DNA of 64,000 nucleotides from an uncultured Phycisphaerales bacterium (GTDB taxonomy: Bacteria > Planctomycetota > Phycisphaerae > Phycisphaerales > SM1A02): contig CASICI010000006.1 in the NCBI GenBank assembly GCA_949373145.1, positions 1-64,000 of the forward strand. Reading direction: 5' to 3'. Below, piece after piece: positions 31,650-40,456 of this stretch. The notes under the pieces were generated by a model, which was given only the letters and a program-made list of their open reading frames with translations, had not been told where the DNA came from and ran no database searches. A program made the position numbers and the translations under genes. Numbering within the stretch: the stretch's first letter is position 1; each line of letters opens with the position of its first letter.

Positions 31650-33514
31650 CGTCTTGGGCTCCGGGTGAGGAGTTCTCGGGTGAATCGTCGTCGGCACCCA
31701 CGGAGGCAGCCGGCGGACTGAATGAATCGTAGCGTCGAAGAGCTCGAGCGCCTCACGAACCAGAGGATTCTCGGTGATCTCCGGATCCAGCGAGGCACGT
31801 TCTGGCGCATCTGGAGGTCGTGCCGGCGCGGCAAGTTCGACGGCGAGCGGACGACCCGCGGCTTCACGCAGGATGGCGGCGACTCGATCCATGTTCGACT
31901 GGACGAAACCGGCGGTCGCCGTATTCGGTCGTTTGAACCTGACTCTGATGCGGTCGGGATCCCCGGAATCGAACTGCAGCTCGATGAACAGGGCCTCGTC
32001 GGAGCCTCGTCGGGATGCCACGTCGCAGGCATGGTTCCAAAGACCTTCGGCGGTCGACAGATCGTGAACCGGGGCGGACTCCTCCCCGTGCTCGGTCTCT
32101 TCGCGGGAGCGGTCTCCGAGCTCGGAACGACTCGTCTGGGCGGTTTGTGCCTCGGTGGTTTTCGCCCGGGTGGCCGCGGGCACCTCGAGCGGGCGACGGA
32201 GGCTCTCGACTGCGGGACTTCGCCGAGTGCTCTCGGCGCAGCTGATGAGGCGACCATCGAGTCAGGCCCGGGCCGCGCGGTCAGCGCGCCCGGGCGGGCG
32301 CTTTTTTTCCCGGTTGACCTGAGAGAAGGCCGGCGGCACTGGCGAAGGACTCCACCAGGCACAGCCTGACCAGAACGGCATCAAGCAGGGCACGTGGTGT
32401 TCCGGATGTCCTGACTTGTCGTGAGCCCGCGTCACAGGCGACGATCATGTGCACCAGCGAGGCCTGCATCGAAGGCTGGTCCGCCACCTCGAGCGCATCG
32501 GCTCGGCGGCATCCGCGGTCATACCCAGACAGTTCCGAATCGGCTGCCGCAGGCGAGGACCACCATCAGACGGCGCAGGCGCTCGGCCAGGGAATCCAGC
32601 AGACAGACCGGGCGACATCCCATTGGCCAGCAGCTCGCCCGCGGCGCGACGAGTGCGCACCACCGGAGCGCGTGCGGCGATCGCCTGGACCACGAGTTCG
32701 CCGAGCAAGCATCGATTCGTCGGGCAGACCCAGCACCTCCGCGAAAGCAGCCCGCGGCCTCAAGAGCACCATCCGCCGCGGCGACCACCCGGTCCAGCAG
32801 GGTCAGGGCATCACGCATCGAGCCGTCGGCCAGCCGGGCCACTTCCAGCGCGACTTCGGAATCGTCGAACGCGATGCCCTCGCTCGTCCAGGATGCTCGT
32901 CCGAGGTGCGCCGCGATCGCGGCTGTCGGGAATCGTTCTGAAAATCGAAACCGCTGGCACCGACTCTGGATGGTCTGCGGCACCTTCTGCGCTTCGGTGG
33001 TGCAAAGCACGAACTTCACATGATCCGGGGGTTCCTCCATGGTCTTGAGCAAGTGCGTTGAACGCCTGCGTGCTCAGCATGTGCACCTCGTCGATGATGT
33101 ACAGCTTGTAGGGGACATCCGCGCAGGCATCAGTCCTGCGAATTGGTGATCAGCTCGCGGACCTCGTTCACCCCGTTGTGGCTGGCGCCGTCGATCTCGA
33201 CCACGTCGATGTCCTCACCACGGAAGATCGCGTCCGACGGCCGCCTCAGCAGGCAGCGGTGTCCCCGCGTACGGTGAGTCCGCGCCATGAGTCATCAATT
33301 CGCTAGGCGAAGATTCGCGCCGCGGAGGTCTTGCCCACGCCCCGGGTCCCGCAGAAGAGGTAGGCGTGCGCGGTCCGCTGCTGATTCGATGGCGTTTCTG
33401 CAGCGTCCGGATGATCGCCTGCTGACCCACCAGTTCGTCGAAGGACTTCGAGCGCGATAGCGCCGGGCCAAGACCTGGTAGGAGCCGGATTTTGGGTGCA
33501 GACGGGTCGGCCAT
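31642..33514 (-). CDS. dnaX: DNA polymerase III subunits gamma/tau (frame broken by indels; probable programmed frameshift)
   Basis: Clamp-loader ATPase. The ATG at 33514 (MADPSAPK) leads to SGSYQVLARRYR, KSFDELVGQQAIIRTLQ, a Walker A region readable as GTRGVGKTS, HMLSTQAFNALLKTMEEPP with VKFVLCTTEAQKVP after it, and IQSRCQRFRF (sensor 1). Domain III is seen as LADGSMRDALTLLDR. The tau part continues with EALFIELQFDSGDPDRIRVRF and NPLVREALELFDAT, ending at 31642 in QDDV, overlapping ybaB. At least eight frame breaks between 31.7 and 33.5 kb look like sequence errors. The slip signal at 32281-32308, about 400 codons in, is treated separately. Confidence 0.85.
32281..32308 (-). promoter_or_regulatory. 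Probable programmed -1 frameshift signal in dnaX
   Basis: On the minus strand the reading frame reaches GGA-AAA-AAA-GCG, an A7 slippery run (32302-32308). It is followed at once by a GCGCCC-GCCC-GGGCGC hairpin (32286-32301) and a TGA stop at 32281-32283, nine codons past the run's start. Reading on in the zero frame gives a short gamma form ending KKAPARAR; slipping back one base opens a long -1 frame leading to tau. Position, run, hairpin and stop are as in known dnaX signals. The surrounding indel errors mean it needs resequencing. Confidence 0.6.
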
Positions 33515-33569
33515 CGGTTCGAACCGGGACCGGGCGCTGAGACGCGAATGAAGCCGGTGAGGAGGCGAG

Positions 33570-33686
33570 GCCGGAGGACGGCCAGGAGTGACACGAGCTC
33601 GGACGACGACGCTTATGGCTGCTGCCGTCAGGCCCTGACCAGGTTCACGAGCCGCCCGCCCTCGCGGTCCCGACCGCCCTCCGAGC
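33570..33686 (-). ncRNA. ffs: Signal recognition particle RNA (small bacterial type)
   Basis: On the minus strand the apical domain IV at 33617-33640 reads GGUCAGG, then GCC-UGAC-GGC, then AGCAGCC: the invariant 5' and 3' sides of the Ffh-binding loop with a UGAC (URRC-type) tetraloop in place of GGAA. The arms close with a ten-pair stem, 33674-33683 with 33572-33581, including one G-U. The gene lies 56 bases before dnaX on the same strand, a common arrangement. A possible promoter is TTGATC (33748-33753), 16 bases, TATCTC (33726-33731). The ends are estimates. Confidence 0.88.
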
Positions 33687-35147: not shown

Positions 35148-36890
35148 TCAACGACCCAGGACAAGAAGCTGGTTGATCAGTTCATCGGTCGTGGTGATCA
35201 CTCGACTCGCCGCGGAATATCCGGTCGACGCGAGAATCATGTTGATGAATTCCTGAGAGAGATCGACGTTCGAGAGTTCGAGTGCTCCACCGACGACTCG
35301 CCCGGTCCCGAAGTCGAGCGGGCTCGCGACCAGAGGCGTACCGGAGTTCGGACCGTTTCGATAGAGATTGTTGCCGGCGTCGACAAGACCTTCCGGGTTG
35401 CTGAACTTCGCGAGTGCGACCTGCCCGATCGAGCGGTTCAGTCCATTCGTGAACGCACCGGTGATGATCCCATCCTCTCCGATCGAGAAGTTGCTCAGGG
35501 TTCCGATCGCGGAGCCGTCCTGATACACCGCGGCGAAGTTGCTGGCCGCATCGGTCAGGCTCGAGACCGAATCGGTCCCGCTGTTGAAGTCCATGTTGAC
35601 CGTCAGCGGACTCACGGCACCATTGTCACGGGCGATCTGGAACGATTGATTGGACGCGTCGAGGTAGCGACCGTTGGCATCGAACTCGACGAGGCCCATT
35701 CCGATCACACGATCATCGATCGCGTTGCCGTTGCTCTCGGCGATGAACTGCCATGTCGTGCCACCACTGGCATTGGTGTCCTGGAGCACGAAACTGAGAT
35801 CGACGGTGACCGGCGTGCCAAGCGAATCGTAGACGACGAATGAGGTTCGAACCGATTCACCCACGGGATCCTGAGTCTGACTGACGATGAACGGCTGACC
35901 GATGCCACCCGCCCCACCGGTGTTGCCGGTGACGACGATGTCGGCGGTATCGATGTCCAGTTCCTGAACGGTGCCTTCATTGCCGTTGATGACGAGCTGC
36001 CCCGAGGCGTTGAAAGCGACCGAGCCTCCAAGGCTCTCGCCACCGGTGACGGTGGCATCAAGTCCCAGGACCTCATCCAGCCAACCGGAGAAATCGTTGA
36101 GCGTGGTGCCGTCGACACCGTAGGTGAAGGTGTTGGTTCCAAGATCCTTGCCGCCCTTTTCGATGCCCGAAATCGTGATTTCGATCGGGCCACCCGATGA
36201 GGAGTCGAAGGCGAGCGTGGTTCCACCCACACCGTCCGAGACCCAGAGGTCGGTGGCCATGTCTTCGGTCCCGGTCACGGGCACGGTTCCAGCGGCATCC
36301 GAATAGAACGCGCGGGACGTGTGCTGCGAACCCTGGGCTCCGATGTCTCCGGAGGCGTTGAGGTTTCCGTTGAAGACGACGTTTCGCGTGGACTCCGCCA
36401 GAGTCAGCGTGCCGACTGGAATGTTCAAGGGTTCGAGGTTGCCCTCGATCACGTTGAACTGTTCATCGACACCGAACCCGAGCACTCGTGCACCGCTCTG
36501 GTTCACGAGGTCGTTGTTCGGATTTCGAACGAACGACCCATCTCTGGTGTAGTAGCGCTCGCCGGCTCCGTCCACGATGAACATGCCGTTGCCTTCGATG
36601 GCGAGGTCCGTGTTGACCCCGGTCGCACCGATCGCGCCGTTCGAAAAGTTTCTCTGGGTCCCCGAGACGCTGACGCCCAGGCCGACCTGACCGGGATTCG
36701 ATCCCCCGGAGGCATCGCCGGGGGCGGTCCCGAGAGAGAAGTTGCGGCTGAAGGTTGGTGCGAACGACATCCGGTTGCTCTTGAACGCGGTGGTGTTGAC
36801 GTTGGCAATGTTGTTACCAATCACATCAAGTCTGCGTGAGTTCGCCAGAAGCCCTGAAAGACCGGTGAAGAGTGCTGTAGTGGACGCCAT
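35148..36890 (-). CDS. flgE: Flagellar hook protein
   Basis: 580 residues that would polymerise into the hook. The N terminus has the rod/hook signature TALFTGLSGLLANSRRLDVI followed by GNNIANVNTTAFKSNR; the C terminus has the matching coil VDLSQEFINMILASTGYSAA and then SRVITTTDELINQLLVL. GNGMFIVDG and YYTRDGSF mark the FlgE/FlgF/FlgG fold; the large Gly/Thr-rich insert (about 150-430) is the surface domain expected for FlgE. The ATG has AAGGA upstream. A perfect sigma-54 promoter ends 40 bases before the ATG, so it is likely transcribed on its own at a defined assembly stage. It is the last gene of the flagellar cluster. Confidence 0.93.
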   Translation of the reverse strand: MASTTALFTGLSGLLANSRRLDVIGNNIANVNTTAFKSNRMSFAPTFSRNFSLGTAPGDASGGSNPGQVGLGVSVSGTQRNFSNGAIGATGVNTDLAIEGNGMFIVDGAGERYYTRDGSFVRNPNNDLVNQSGARVLGFGVDEQFNVIEGNLEPLNIPVGTLTLAESTRNVVFNGNLNASGDIGAQGSQHTSRAFYSDAAGTVPVTGTEDMATDLWVSDGVGGTTLAFDSSSGGPIEITISGIEKGGKDLGTNTFTYGVDGTTLNDFSGWLDEVLGLDATVTGGESLGGSVAFNASGQLVINGNEGTVQELDIDTADIVVTGNTGGAGGIGQPFIVSQTQDPVGESVRTSFVVYDSLGTPVTVDLSFVLQDTNASGGTTWQFIAESNGNAIDDRVIGMGLVEFDANGRYLDASNQSFQIARDNGAVSPLTVNMDFNSGTDSVSSLTDAASNFAAVYQDGSAIGTLSNFSIGEDGIITGAFTNGLNRSIGQVALAKFSNPEGLVDAGNNLYRNGPNSGTPLVASPLDFGTGRVVGGALELSNVDLSQEFINMILASTGYSAASRVITTTDELINQLLVLGR

Positions 36891-36958: not shown

Positions 36959-37456
36959 CTAGAGGGGACTTCCAAGCCCCATGAACGGCCGATCCAGCCG
37001 AGGGCGTGCAGAATCTGCCTGATCACTCGAACCCTCCGCAGCTTCCTCGCCCGAATCCCCGGGTGTGGAGGCCGACATCGGCTCGACGAGAACGACTCCA
37101 CCGACGGTCTGCACGCGACCGGTCTGATCGGAGCCCAGTTCATCCATGATCTTTCGCTCGGAGACTTCGACCACGAAGGCACGTCCTCCGAGCAGAACGA
37201 TGCCATCGTCGAGCCCTGCCGATTCCAGGGAATCACAGGCTCGACCGATTCCAGCCAACTGTTCTGCATCCAGTGTGAAACGACGATCGACGTCGACGAC
37301 TCGCCCCGAATCGAGCGTACCGTCGTTCGCCAATCTGATGATGCGTGCGAACTCGCCCTCGGCGGCTCCGCTGGAACGTCCGTCCGTGGAGGCGACACGA
37401 CCGATTCCGATCACGGGCTGAAGTCGCTTCAGAAGATGATCACCATCGAAACTCAT
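36959..37456 (-). CDS. Flagellar operon protein, TIGR02530-like
   Basis: 165 residues. The central part RRFTLDAEQLAGIGRACDSLESAGLDDGIVLLGGRAFVVEVSERKI (read with breaks) follows the TIGR02530 pattern of small flagellar-operon proteins: a helix that begins after an R-x-[IF]-x-L element, then a strand ending with an FVV-V-x-R core. Family members sit between flgD and flgE in many bacteria, as here, but their exact job is not settled. Ends of the protein are low complexity. No SD is obvious before the ATG at 37456; the gap to flgD is 27 bases. Confidence 0.6.
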   Translation of the reverse strand: MSFDGDHLLKRLQPVIGIGRVASTDGRSSGAAEGEFARIIRLANDGTLDSGRVVDVDRRFTLDAEQLAGIGRACDSLESAGLDDGIVLLGGRAFVVEVSERKIMDELGSDQTGRVQTVGGVVLVEPMSASTPGDSGEEAAEGSSDQADSARPRLDRPFMGLGSPL

Positions 37457-37483: not shown

Positions 37484-38137
37484 TCAACCTTCGGTGTCGG
37501 ACTCGTCCGAACCACCGGCATCGTCGGTTCCTTCGGACTCATCGGCCGTGTCCGAATCATCGGTGTCACCTTCGGAATCGCTCTGGCCCTGCTCGAGCTC
37601 ACTCCATTGACCGAGCAGAATGCTGAGGTCGGTGCCATCGACGACTCCATCACCATTCACATCGGTGAGTCCGGAGCCATCAAACGGATTCCCTCCGTTG
37701 GTGCCACCAGTACCATCATCGAACAGTGTCTGGTCGACGATCAGTTCCACCTGGTCGACATCGATCACCCAGCCGGTGTCCAGCTCGACTCCGATGGAAT
37801 CACCCTGGCGGATCACCGAGATGACCTGGCCATCGACCCTGTTTCCGCCCGGTGCCATGCCCTGGATGTATCGGCCGATCAGATTGCTTGCTCCAGCGAG
37901 CTGATTCTGAAAGACGATCGATTCCAATTGCGACGTGAGTGCCATGTCGCTTTCGATCGAGCGGATCGAATTCAACTGCTCGAGCAGGGCCGAACTGTCA
38001 TTGGGCTCGAACGGATCCTGATTCTGAAGTTCGGTGAACATGATGTTCAAGAACTCCTCGGAATCCAAAGCACCGAAGCCACTGCTCGCTCCGACCGATC
38101 CACCACCGACGCCTGCTGCTGATGTAATACTGCTCAT
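37484..38137 (-). CDS. flgD: Flagellar hook-capping protein FlgD with C-terminal dockerin-like EF hand
   Basis: 217 residues. Residues 25-85 are the FlgD N-terminal domain (EEFLNIMFTELQNQDPFEP, LEQLNSIRSIESDMAL); 86-135 give the small beta domain (NLIGRYIQG ... VDGQVISVIRQGDSIGVEL). The usual Ig-like domain is absent. Instead residues 159-178 read DVNGDGVVDGTDLSILLGQW, a calcium loop with D/N/D/D at 1, 3, 5, 9 and D at 12, followed by ~40 residues rich in D, E, S and G. FlgD is the scaffold on which FlgE polymerises. The ATG overlaps the fliK stop by four bases (ATGA). Confidence 0.9.
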   Translation of the reverse strand: MSSITSAAGVGGGSVGASSGFGALDSEEFLNIMFTELQNQDPFEPNDSSALLEQLNSIRSIESDMALTSQLESIVFQNQLAGASNLIGRYIQGMAPGGNRVDGQVISVIRQGDSIGVELDTGWVIDVDQVELIVDQTLFDDGTGGTNGGNPFDGSGLTDVNGDGVVDGTDLSILLGQWSELEQGQSDSEGDTDDSDTADESEGTDDAGGSDESDTEG

Positions 38138-39762
38138 GCCGCATCCTCACTCATGATCTGCGTGAAACTCACGTCCTGTTGATTCTGATTCGGGTCGTCG
38201 TGTTCGGAATGCATTCCGCGTTCCTGATCTCGCCCACGACTCTCCCGACCGGCCGCATCCTGACGACCATCTTCCTGTTCATCGTTTTCAGCCTGCTGCT
38301 GACCATCACCCTGCGTGTTCGATTCGGAGCGCGTGCTCTGGGATTCGGACGACCCTGTCGCAGCCTGAACCGAGAGTCTTTCGACTGAAAGTCCGCGTGA
38401 TTCGAGCGAGGCTCGAAGCGTCTCCAGTCCACGTTCCATGACCACGCGGCCGGCGGAGTTGCTTGCATGCAACTCGGCATGGACGACGCCATTCGACACG
38501 GACATCTTGATCATCACCTGGCCCAGACTTGGTGGGTCCAGTCGCATGGTGAGACTTCCACCCTTCTGTGACGCCAGAGCGTTCATTCCGCGCGAAGTGA
38601 TCATCGTGGCTTGTTCGACGAGTTTGGCCTCGTTCGCGGAGCGGGAAAGAACCTCGCTCAGAACCGAAGTCCTCGCCTCCAGCGTGCCGGTTTCTGAGAG
38701 TCCGGCCACCGCATTCACCGAGGCGACCGATGCACCGGTCGTCGCTCCGCCATTCATGGCCCGAATGGCCTGTTCGTGTGCGACCGTCTGATTGATCTCT
38801 CGCACACGACCAAGCGCGGGGTCGAGATCCTGAGTCTCCGATTCCATCGTGATTCCCTGTCGCGAAAGAAGTTCGCTGAGCGAACGCCCCTTCGGACGGC
38901 TGGTCATGCCTTCATCACCCGTTTGAGCGGCACGTTCACTGGTCCGGGAGGGAGCGCCCCTCGAAGCGTCTTCTGCAGTCGCCGATTCGACTCGGGCAGC
39001 CGTCGTCTCGGCAGAGACGTTCGAGCGGACCGAGTCGACCGTCTTCACCATGTCGGCGGGCGGCGCCGACGGGCGTTCAGGTCCCACTGACGAGGGACCG
39101 TTTCCGTCGGGACGTGAACTCTGATGTGACGGTGAAGCATCACCACCGGTGGCGGTCGTCCGGCGATTCGGCACACCCACCTCTGCGGCAGTTGATCGGC
39201 CTTGACTCTCATCCGGCCCCGTGATCTCGGCCGGCACGGCAGAGACCACACTGGTGTCAATGATCGAGGTGTCGCTGATCGAAGCCTCAGCCGTGTCGAG
39301 ATTGGCGTTCAACTCAACCTGGGATCTTGGCGCTTGCTCGGGGCTTGAGATCGTGGCATCATCCGCGGCGCTCTCCGAGCGAGCGGACTCCTCGGCGTCC
39401 GAAGACGTCTTCGTCTGTAGAGAGCCTCCGGCGCGTTCGGACGGCACTTCCTGCGATGAATCGGCGATTTCTGCCTGTGCTTCACTCTCGAAGGCAACAT
39501 CCTCGGAATCATTCTGACGCGAGGACTCGGAAGCAGGTTCGTGCTTTTCGGCCAGGGAAGGCTGAGGTCCGACTTTCTTGGTGTGCTCGGCGTAGGACTC
39601 GGAGGGGAGACGACGCTCATCATTCAGATGGTCTGAAAAACGCGTCTTGGAGTCTTGAGAGGTGTTTTTCGACAGTGCCTCCGCGACACTCGAGGGGCTG
39701 CCTGAACCCACCTGAGGTCGGAGAAGATCATTTTGGATCTGTGGGACTGGCGGAACTTGCAT
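38134..39762 (-). CDS. fliK: Flagellar hook-length control protein
   Basis: 542 residues from the ATG at 39762, which has GGAG 7 bases upstream; an ATG at 39783 is also in frame. The first ~330 residues are low-complexity and Ser/Glu/Ala/Thr-rich, as expected for the FliK ruler. The Flg_hook domain lies near 380-465: GGSLTMRLDPPSLGQVMIKM followed by SVSNGVVHAELHASNSAGR, then LRASLESRGLSVERLSV. The C-terminal tail is Gln/Asp/Arg-rich. FliK switches the export gate from hook to filament substrates through FlhB. Its start lies within the end of the motE-like gene and its stop overlaps flgD (ATGA). Confidence 0.88.
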   Translation of the reverse strand: MQVPPVPQIQNDLLRPQVGSGSPSSVAEALSKNTSQDSKTRFSDHLNDERRLPSESYAEHTKKVGPQPSLAEKHEPASESSRQNDSEDVAFESEAQAEIADSSQEVPSERAGGSLQTKTSSDAEESARSESAADDATISSPEQAPRSQVELNANLDTAEASISDTSIIDTSVVSAVPAEITGPDESQGRSTAAEVGVPNRRTTATGGDASPSHQSSRPDGNGPSSVGPERPSAPPADMVKTVDSVRSNVSAETTAARVESATAEDASRGAPSRTSERAAQTGDEGMTSRPKGRSLSELLSRQGITMESETQDLDPALGRVREINQTVAHEQAIRAMNGGATTGASVASVNAVAGLSETGTLEARTSVLSEVLSRSANEAKLVEQATMITSRGMNALASQKGGSLTMRLDPPSLGQVMIKMSVSNGVVHAELHASNSAGRVVMERGLETLRASLESRGLSVERLSVQAATGSSESQSTRSESNTQGDGQQQAENDEQEDGRQDAAGRESRGRDQERGMHSEHDDPNQNQQDVSFTQIMSEDAA

Positions 39763-40456
39763 CGACGATCTCCGTAGCGTCATCCGTTGCGGATGGTGGC
39801 ACTCTGAGAGACTTGAGCAAAGCGGAGGCCAGTTGCATGTCCTCTTCAGACTTCATCGCTGCGAAAATGCTGGTGCGTGTTCCGGCTCGCATCGCTCGAA
39901 GATACTCGACCGCATCGTTCATCTGGCCGTCACCGCACATGAGTACCAGGTACTCCTTCGATGATTTGGCGGGAAGCGATTCGAGCAGTTTGGTGACGCG
40001 GGTGAACTCGATTTGTTCCTCGGCGGTGCGACGGTCCGTCCGTGACGCCTCGAAGGCGTTCAGACGACGGGTGAGCTCAGCCTCCCGGGCGGCCAGTCGG
40101 CGCTCGAAGTCGAGCAGTTCGGTGCGATCTCGCTCGAGATCGGAGCGAAAACGACGTTCCATCCGCTGGCGATGCATCTCGATGGCTTCGAGGGAATCGA
40201 TCGGCTGATTGCTTCCTGCAGGGAGACGCACGAGTGAAGCCTCCTCCTGCGCCATCTCCATCGCGATGGCCTCCGCTTTCTCGACGGCAAGACGCTCCGA
40301 GCTTTCCTGCTGAATGGGCACATGAAAGATCAGACGGGTGCGGTCGAGACGTTCGGTGTCCAGACGACCGGAACCGAAGAGCCAGACCACGAAGCATCCG
40401 ACGGCGATCAGATTCATGACCGCCAGAAACGAGACGATGTTCCACACCTTTGTCAT
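39728..40456 (-). CDS. MotE-like flagellar protein with N-terminal membrane anchor
   Basis: 242 residues. One membrane helix (WNIVSFLAVMNLIAVGCFVVWLF) is followed by a long charged coiled coil (about 60-165: EIHRQR-type heptads, DLERDRTELLDFERRLAAREAELTRR as seen in two pieces). A MgtE-N-like C-terminal unit follows: FTRVTKLLESLPAKSSKEYLVL and MNDAVEYLRAMRAGTRTSI. This architecture is that of MotE/FlaA-locus chaperone-like proteins needed for the stator MotC or for export. The ATG overlaps the fliJ stop (ATGA). Sequence identity to MotE is a guess from architecture. Confidence 0.6.
   Translation of the reverse strand: MTKVWNIVSFLAVMNLIAVGCFVVWLFGSGRLDTERLDRTRLIFHVPIQQESSERLAVEKAEAIAMEMAQEEASLVRLPAGSNQPIDSLEAIEMHRQRMERRFRSDLERDRTELLDFERRLAAREAELTRRLNAFEASRTDRRTAEEQIEFTRVTKLLESLPAKSSKEYLVLMCGDGQMNDAVEYLRAMRAGTRTSIFAAMKSEEDMQLASALLKSLRVPPSATDDATEIVDASSASPTDPK

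Follow-up and report, generated by a model that had tools for sequence, protein, structure and literature searches.

The FlgD hook-capping protein encoded in the window, the stretch of 64,000 nucleotides from an uncultured Phycisphaerales bacterium that we analysed, carries a half dockerin beyond its core: a calcium loop and the helix after it. It falls short of a full dockerin in having one repeat and in scoring below the family cut-off. On sequence grounds the loop is a genuine dockerin-type calcium loop, predicted to bind calcium, and the pattern of codon substitutions indicates that the repeat is kept by purifying selection. We hypothesize, with a probability of roughly 0.4, that a short-form FlgD gained one repeat of its own genome's dockerin type by way of a flexible linker, and that this repeat would fold on calcium outside the cell and display a helix on the hook cap. 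What is known of dockerins comes mainly from cellulosomes, where they are the plugs that hold secreted enzymes in place. Our literature search found no paper joining dockerins to FlgD or to the hook cap, in agreement with the original remark that no described FlgD of this type was known.

Identity and domain layout of the window FlgD

The flgD gene (37484..38137, minus strand) is a complete ORF for a protein of 217 aa, whose start, at 38137, overlaps the fliK 3' end and whose stop codon is at 37484-37486. It belongs to a flagellar operon with fliF-fliI type genes upstream and stands between fliK, the hook-length ruler (38134..39783, minus strand; Flg_hook E=2.8e-16), and flgE, the hook protein (35148..36890, minus strand; Pfam and NCBIfam searches). 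A small ORF of 165 residues between flgD and flgE (36959..37456, minus strand) gave no significant family match in Pfam or NCBIfam, and its place suggests a small protein of the flagellar operon. A dnaX-like coding sequence at 32500-33600 of the window (minus strand) appears to be broken up among several reading frames (ORFs 32519-33052, 32811-33086 and 33295-33594), apparently through sequence errors in the metagenome-assembled genome (MAG).

The protein is a FlgD by its N-domain, its Tudor-like domain and its operon context. Pfam FlgD matches residues 22-73 (E=1.1e-10, 42 bits against a cut-off of 27), and the NCBIfam models PRK09618 and PRK06009, both for FlgD, match as well; PRK09618 (NF007197) aligns residues 23-133 to model positions 24-135 of 138 with a score below its equivalog cut-off, while the Pfam FLgD_tudor model did not report the protein. 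The likeness to short-form FlgD (NF007197 PRK09618, 138 aa; NF004670) thus covers the N-domain and the Tudor-like domain along most of the model, after which the window FlgD adds 81 residues comprising a linker, the dockerin repeat and an acidic tail.

All features of the protein are given on the minus strand. The N-terminal domain, or cap stalk (residues 22-73, 37919..38074), was modelled by AlphaFold2 (AF2) with helices at 26-38 and 48-84, and is followed by a Tudor-like barrel without an Ig/Fn insert (residues 81-136, 37730..37897; strands 90-134, pLDDT ~90). The top Foldseek matches to the model included Tudor folds and, at rank 2, the Salmonella FlgD cap 7bhq. The N-domain is homologous to that of the Salmonella cap (7bhq/7eha/7nvg; phmmer E=8e-4), whose C-terminal domain is in contrast a hybrid of Tudor and fibronectin III folds without a dockerin repeat. 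The window FlgD is predicted to form a hook-cap pentamer. A variable linker of 19 residues (137-155, 37673..37729) then leads to the single dockerin repeat (156-178, 37604..37672) and the acidic tail (179-217, 39 aa, 37487..37603).

The full-length AF2 run used 31 aligned FlgDs, of which three rows cover the loop and helix; it gave the stalk helices and, with confidence, the barrel, while in this thinly covered region the loop was mostly at pLDDT <50 and the helix (168-184) near 50. Modelled on their own, residues 150-184 formed the loop and helix in the best model, at a mean pLDDT of 87; the five models ranged from 58 to 87. The 35-residue model of the repeat, too short as a query, returned no matches in Foldseek or VIA-align.

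The C-terminal module is half a dockerin

The 12-residue calcium loop D159-D170 (DVNGDGVVDGTD; 37628..37663) has all five side-chain ligand positions filled (D159, N161, D163, D167 and D170 at loop positions 1, 3, 5, 9 and 12), these being acidic or amide in the six orthologues of the window's genus and its sister genus, and is followed by a helix from L171 to W178. Dockerin_1 (PF00404) matches residues 158-179 with E=0.0011 and 19.6 bits, just under the Pfam gathering cut-off of 22.9 because only half of the model (positions 2-24 of 57) is matched. One F-hand is present rather than two. The EF-hand profile PF00036 reached 11.4 bits against a cut-off of 25.4, and the GC-type dockerin model NF041540 did not match. 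A further comparison used a scoring matrix built from 48 dockerin repeats on other proteins of the same genome: the FlgD repeat scored 46 bits, a value reached by none of 100,000 shuffles of the tail (best 12.5), and it shares 17/20 identities with one dockerin copy of its own genome. The dockerin-like loop originally proposed at residues 159-178 is thereby substantiated. A wrong reading frame, which would have undone it, is countered by the recurrence of the module in six species and by the codon-level constraint described below.

The sequence profile of the repeat also matches single repeats of solved dockerins. Its calcium loop and following helix are like those of type I dockerins (PF00404; 6kg9, 1ohz, 9gvb), from which it differs in having one repeat rather than two, in a genus where no clear cohesin was found, and in sitting on a flagellar protein expected to use type III export rather than on a Sec-secreted enzyme. 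It resembles paired modules of its own genome that in turn resemble the GC-type dockerin NF041540 below the cut-off, but lacks the second repeat and the flanking cysteines of that type. Matches in the PDB to designed beta-trefoils were set aside as short NxDGTVDGT matches and not relatives. A DNA pattern for the repeat, which was too strict, gave no match across the genome.

The Ig-like domain and the acidic tail

In Salmonella and other bacteria, FlgD contains the Ig-like domain as an insert. This domain is literally absent from the window FlgD, as first noticed, but it is lacking in every FlgD of the order that we examined, many of which are complete proteins of 132-150 aa. A short FlgD without the insert is therefore the norm in the order, and the view that the dockerin loop stands in place of a usual C-terminal domain was rejected.

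The tail is very acidic, as described from the outset, with D or E at 17/39 of residues 179-217 (44%) and no K or R, but its treatment as one module with the loop did not survive comparison, since tail and loop come and go independently. The loop-bearing FlgDs of the sister genus (G010 and G052) stop directly behind the helix and have no acidic tail, and acidic tails are common among loop-less relatives, those of G006, G034, G038 and G053, for example, being equally acidic. We also rejected, by analogy only, the idea that the tail is there to serve as a C-terminal export signal, given that Salmonella FlgD has none.

Distribution and origin of the module

FlgD genes were sampled from 133 genomes of the order, and a tree was built on the FlgD core (133 rows). 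The repeat is present in 4/4 FlgDs recovered from the window's genus (g1, whose members include the public MAGs SP135 and TMED75; L031, L032) and in 2/2 from its sister genus (g7), so that the motif is kept in all six and the gain in the window lineage is old enough to be common to two genera. In another genus of the same family (g45), seven FlgDs (L165, L166, L169, L171, L204, L206 and L207) carry one dockerin loop in an ending of the form '..VLGNWG....DLNxDGKIDATDLALALGG', with a conserved WG, which corresponds to the end of a first repeat and the whole of a second; the other g45 members examined have loop-less tails. A two-loop dockerin occurs on FlgD in two species of one genus in another family (L003 and L174; G098 and G256), scoring above the Pfam cut-off in G098 (27.3 against 22.9 bits), and probably represents a separate gain.

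Loop carriers thus make up 15/133 FlgDs and fall into three separate clades (SH-aLRT 99*, 82 and 99*, two of them with starred support), requiring three changes on a core tree that has few columns and in which parsimony by itself cannot tell gain from loss. Separate gains are favoured because the module types differ between the three clades, and the module was probably added three separate times in this group. Loop-bearing FlgD occurs in some sea-dwelling Phycisphaerae. In the wider phylum the loop was found in 0/37 FlgDs in a sample confined to the longer ORFs of the phylum survey (within L223-L262; 37 is a conservative figure, as 40 such loci were read).

Selection on the repeat

Among the six genes of the window's genus and its sister genus, pN/pS was 0.252 for the N-domain, 0.274 for the Tudor-like part and 0.251 for the loop and helix, compared with 0.76 in the linker and 0.52 in the tail. 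The ratios come from simple counts, uncorrected for saturation and at high pS (0.5-0.8), and serve for comparison only. The loop and helix contain no indels, whereas the linker and tail are full of them (459 gap cells in the tail). The corresponding values in g45 were 0.15 for the core, 0.57 for the linker and 0.28 for the loop and helix. The loop and helix are constrained like the core while their flanks drift, and the repeat is therefore maintained as a module.

These data also bear on whether the module could be a misreading, from a wrong frame or faulty assembly, or a chance match to a D/G-rich stretch of the acidic tail. The tail is indeed rich in these residues and there are apparent frame problems nearby, in the dnaX region, but recurrence in six species, the absence of any comparable score among 100,000 shuffles and the codon-level constraint led us to reject this explanation as almost certainly false.

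Dockerins and cohesins in the genomes

Dockerin matches in the window genome, a 2.1 Mb MAG that is 75% complete, number 31 at a threshold of E<=0.001 and rise to 69 at E<=1. Most of the strong matches span both repeats near the C-terminus of the ORF, as in L119, which begins with a signal-peptide-like stretch. Dozens of ORFs of this genome (G000) end in a paired dockerin module (e.g. L119, L139 and L129), and two such modules that we tested resemble GC-type dockerin NF041540 below its cut-off. Of the axial proteins that searches with Flg_bbr_C, flagellin and FlgD models brought up, FlgD alone carries a dockerin match; no axial flagellar gene identified by the Flg_bbr_C or flagellin model overlaps one. 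Dockerins were present in 20/20 genomes sampled, mostly in large numbers.

A search for cohesins found none in the window genome at its 75% completeness, in the 96%-complete G002, in G052 or in the genomes with a full dockerin on FlgD (G098 and G256), and gave only weak matches in G003, G004 and G010. Cohesins above the Pfam cut-off were found in three g45 genomes with a loop-bearing FlgD (L263, L264, L265, L269 and L270). The window's own genus thus has at most weak cohesin matches, against clear ones in g45, although dockerins are abundant in both.

Proposed function of the repeat and alternative explanations

Cytoplasmic calcium is sub-micromolar and that of sea water is ~10 mM, so a C-terminal calcium loop should stay open inside the cell and fold outside. 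We propose that the loop would remain unfolded in the cytoplasm, where calcium is too low, and that the tail would then not hinder flagellar type III export. On reaching calcium-rich water at the hook tip, the loop would bind Ca2+ and the helix would fold, potentially presenting five folded helices on the outside of the cap pentamer. By pairing among themselves these helices may make the cap more stable, or they may touch some other component of the surface. The calcium binding, the folding on exit and the site of display are our inferences. In the Salmonella cap, five FlgD subunits build a stalk from their N-terminal helices, topped by outer petals that the C-terminal domains make up (PMC8595650). 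Deletions show the N-domain of Salmonella FlgD to be essential, and the protein is exported unstructured. It has no C-terminal export signal (PMC10936197). Given outer C-terminal petals, an essential N-domain and no C-terminal export signal, an added C-terminal module should be tolerated. One half dockerin might suffice, because five cap helices could pair with each other, although a pentamer cannot pair all its halves. A lone repeat may also bind calcium weakly because EF-type loops usually act in pairs, and a lasting role at the surface is doubtful because, where it has been studied, the FlgD cap is temporary. A broader version, in which dockerin-type F-hands recruited three times would fold on extracellular calcium only once outside the cell, and would either lock the cap or attach it to a partner at the surface, such that hook assembly would be calcium-gated in several Phycisphaerae lineages, we consider unlikely.

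The repeat might instead be read by a cohesin-like or other receptor of the secreted dockerin proteins, which would link the cell-surface network to the hook tip or to the cap once released. Such docking is consistent with the close match of the FlgD repeat to its own genome's dockerins and with the clear cohesins of the three g45 genomes, and cohesin/dockerin complexes have been proposed for another Phycisphaerae family, the Nemodlikiaceae, as a 'planctosome', the nearest published idea, which concerns peptidases (PMC6461901). We nevertheless judge it improbable, given the pattern of absent or weak cohesins in the window's genus, its sister genus and the two genomes with a full dockerin on FlgD, and given that type I dockerins use two F-hands (PMC12484212), of which FlgD has one. 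A dockerin fragment could also have been picked up by 3'-end recombination and merely tolerated, kept mostly for solubility or export behaviour without a specific interaction: a source was at hand in every genome sampled, and FlgD tails vary freely from 0 to over 100 residues and may be acidic, Pro-rich or Gly-Ser. This, too, seems doubtful to us, as the loop and helix are constrained like the core in one clade and far above their flanks in a second, with zero indels, and a module of this kind occurs in three separate clades.

A calcium-folded repeat displayed on the cap thus remains our preferred reading. The presence of a constrained dockerin repeat on FlgD in three clades suggests a calcium-folded element that is useful at the growing tip of the flagellum. 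The FlgD repeat also offers a simple way to test how dockerin repeats work singly, and it bears on the purpose of the many Phycisphaerae dockerins without evident cohesins.

Other variation in FlgD across the order

Many near-complete genomes of family f1 are without any FlgD, and flagella seem to have been lost repeatedly there. In FlgDs of family f6 (L006, L021, L181, L185-L188, L198, L200 and L222) the Tudor-like domain appears to be followed by another copy of itself.
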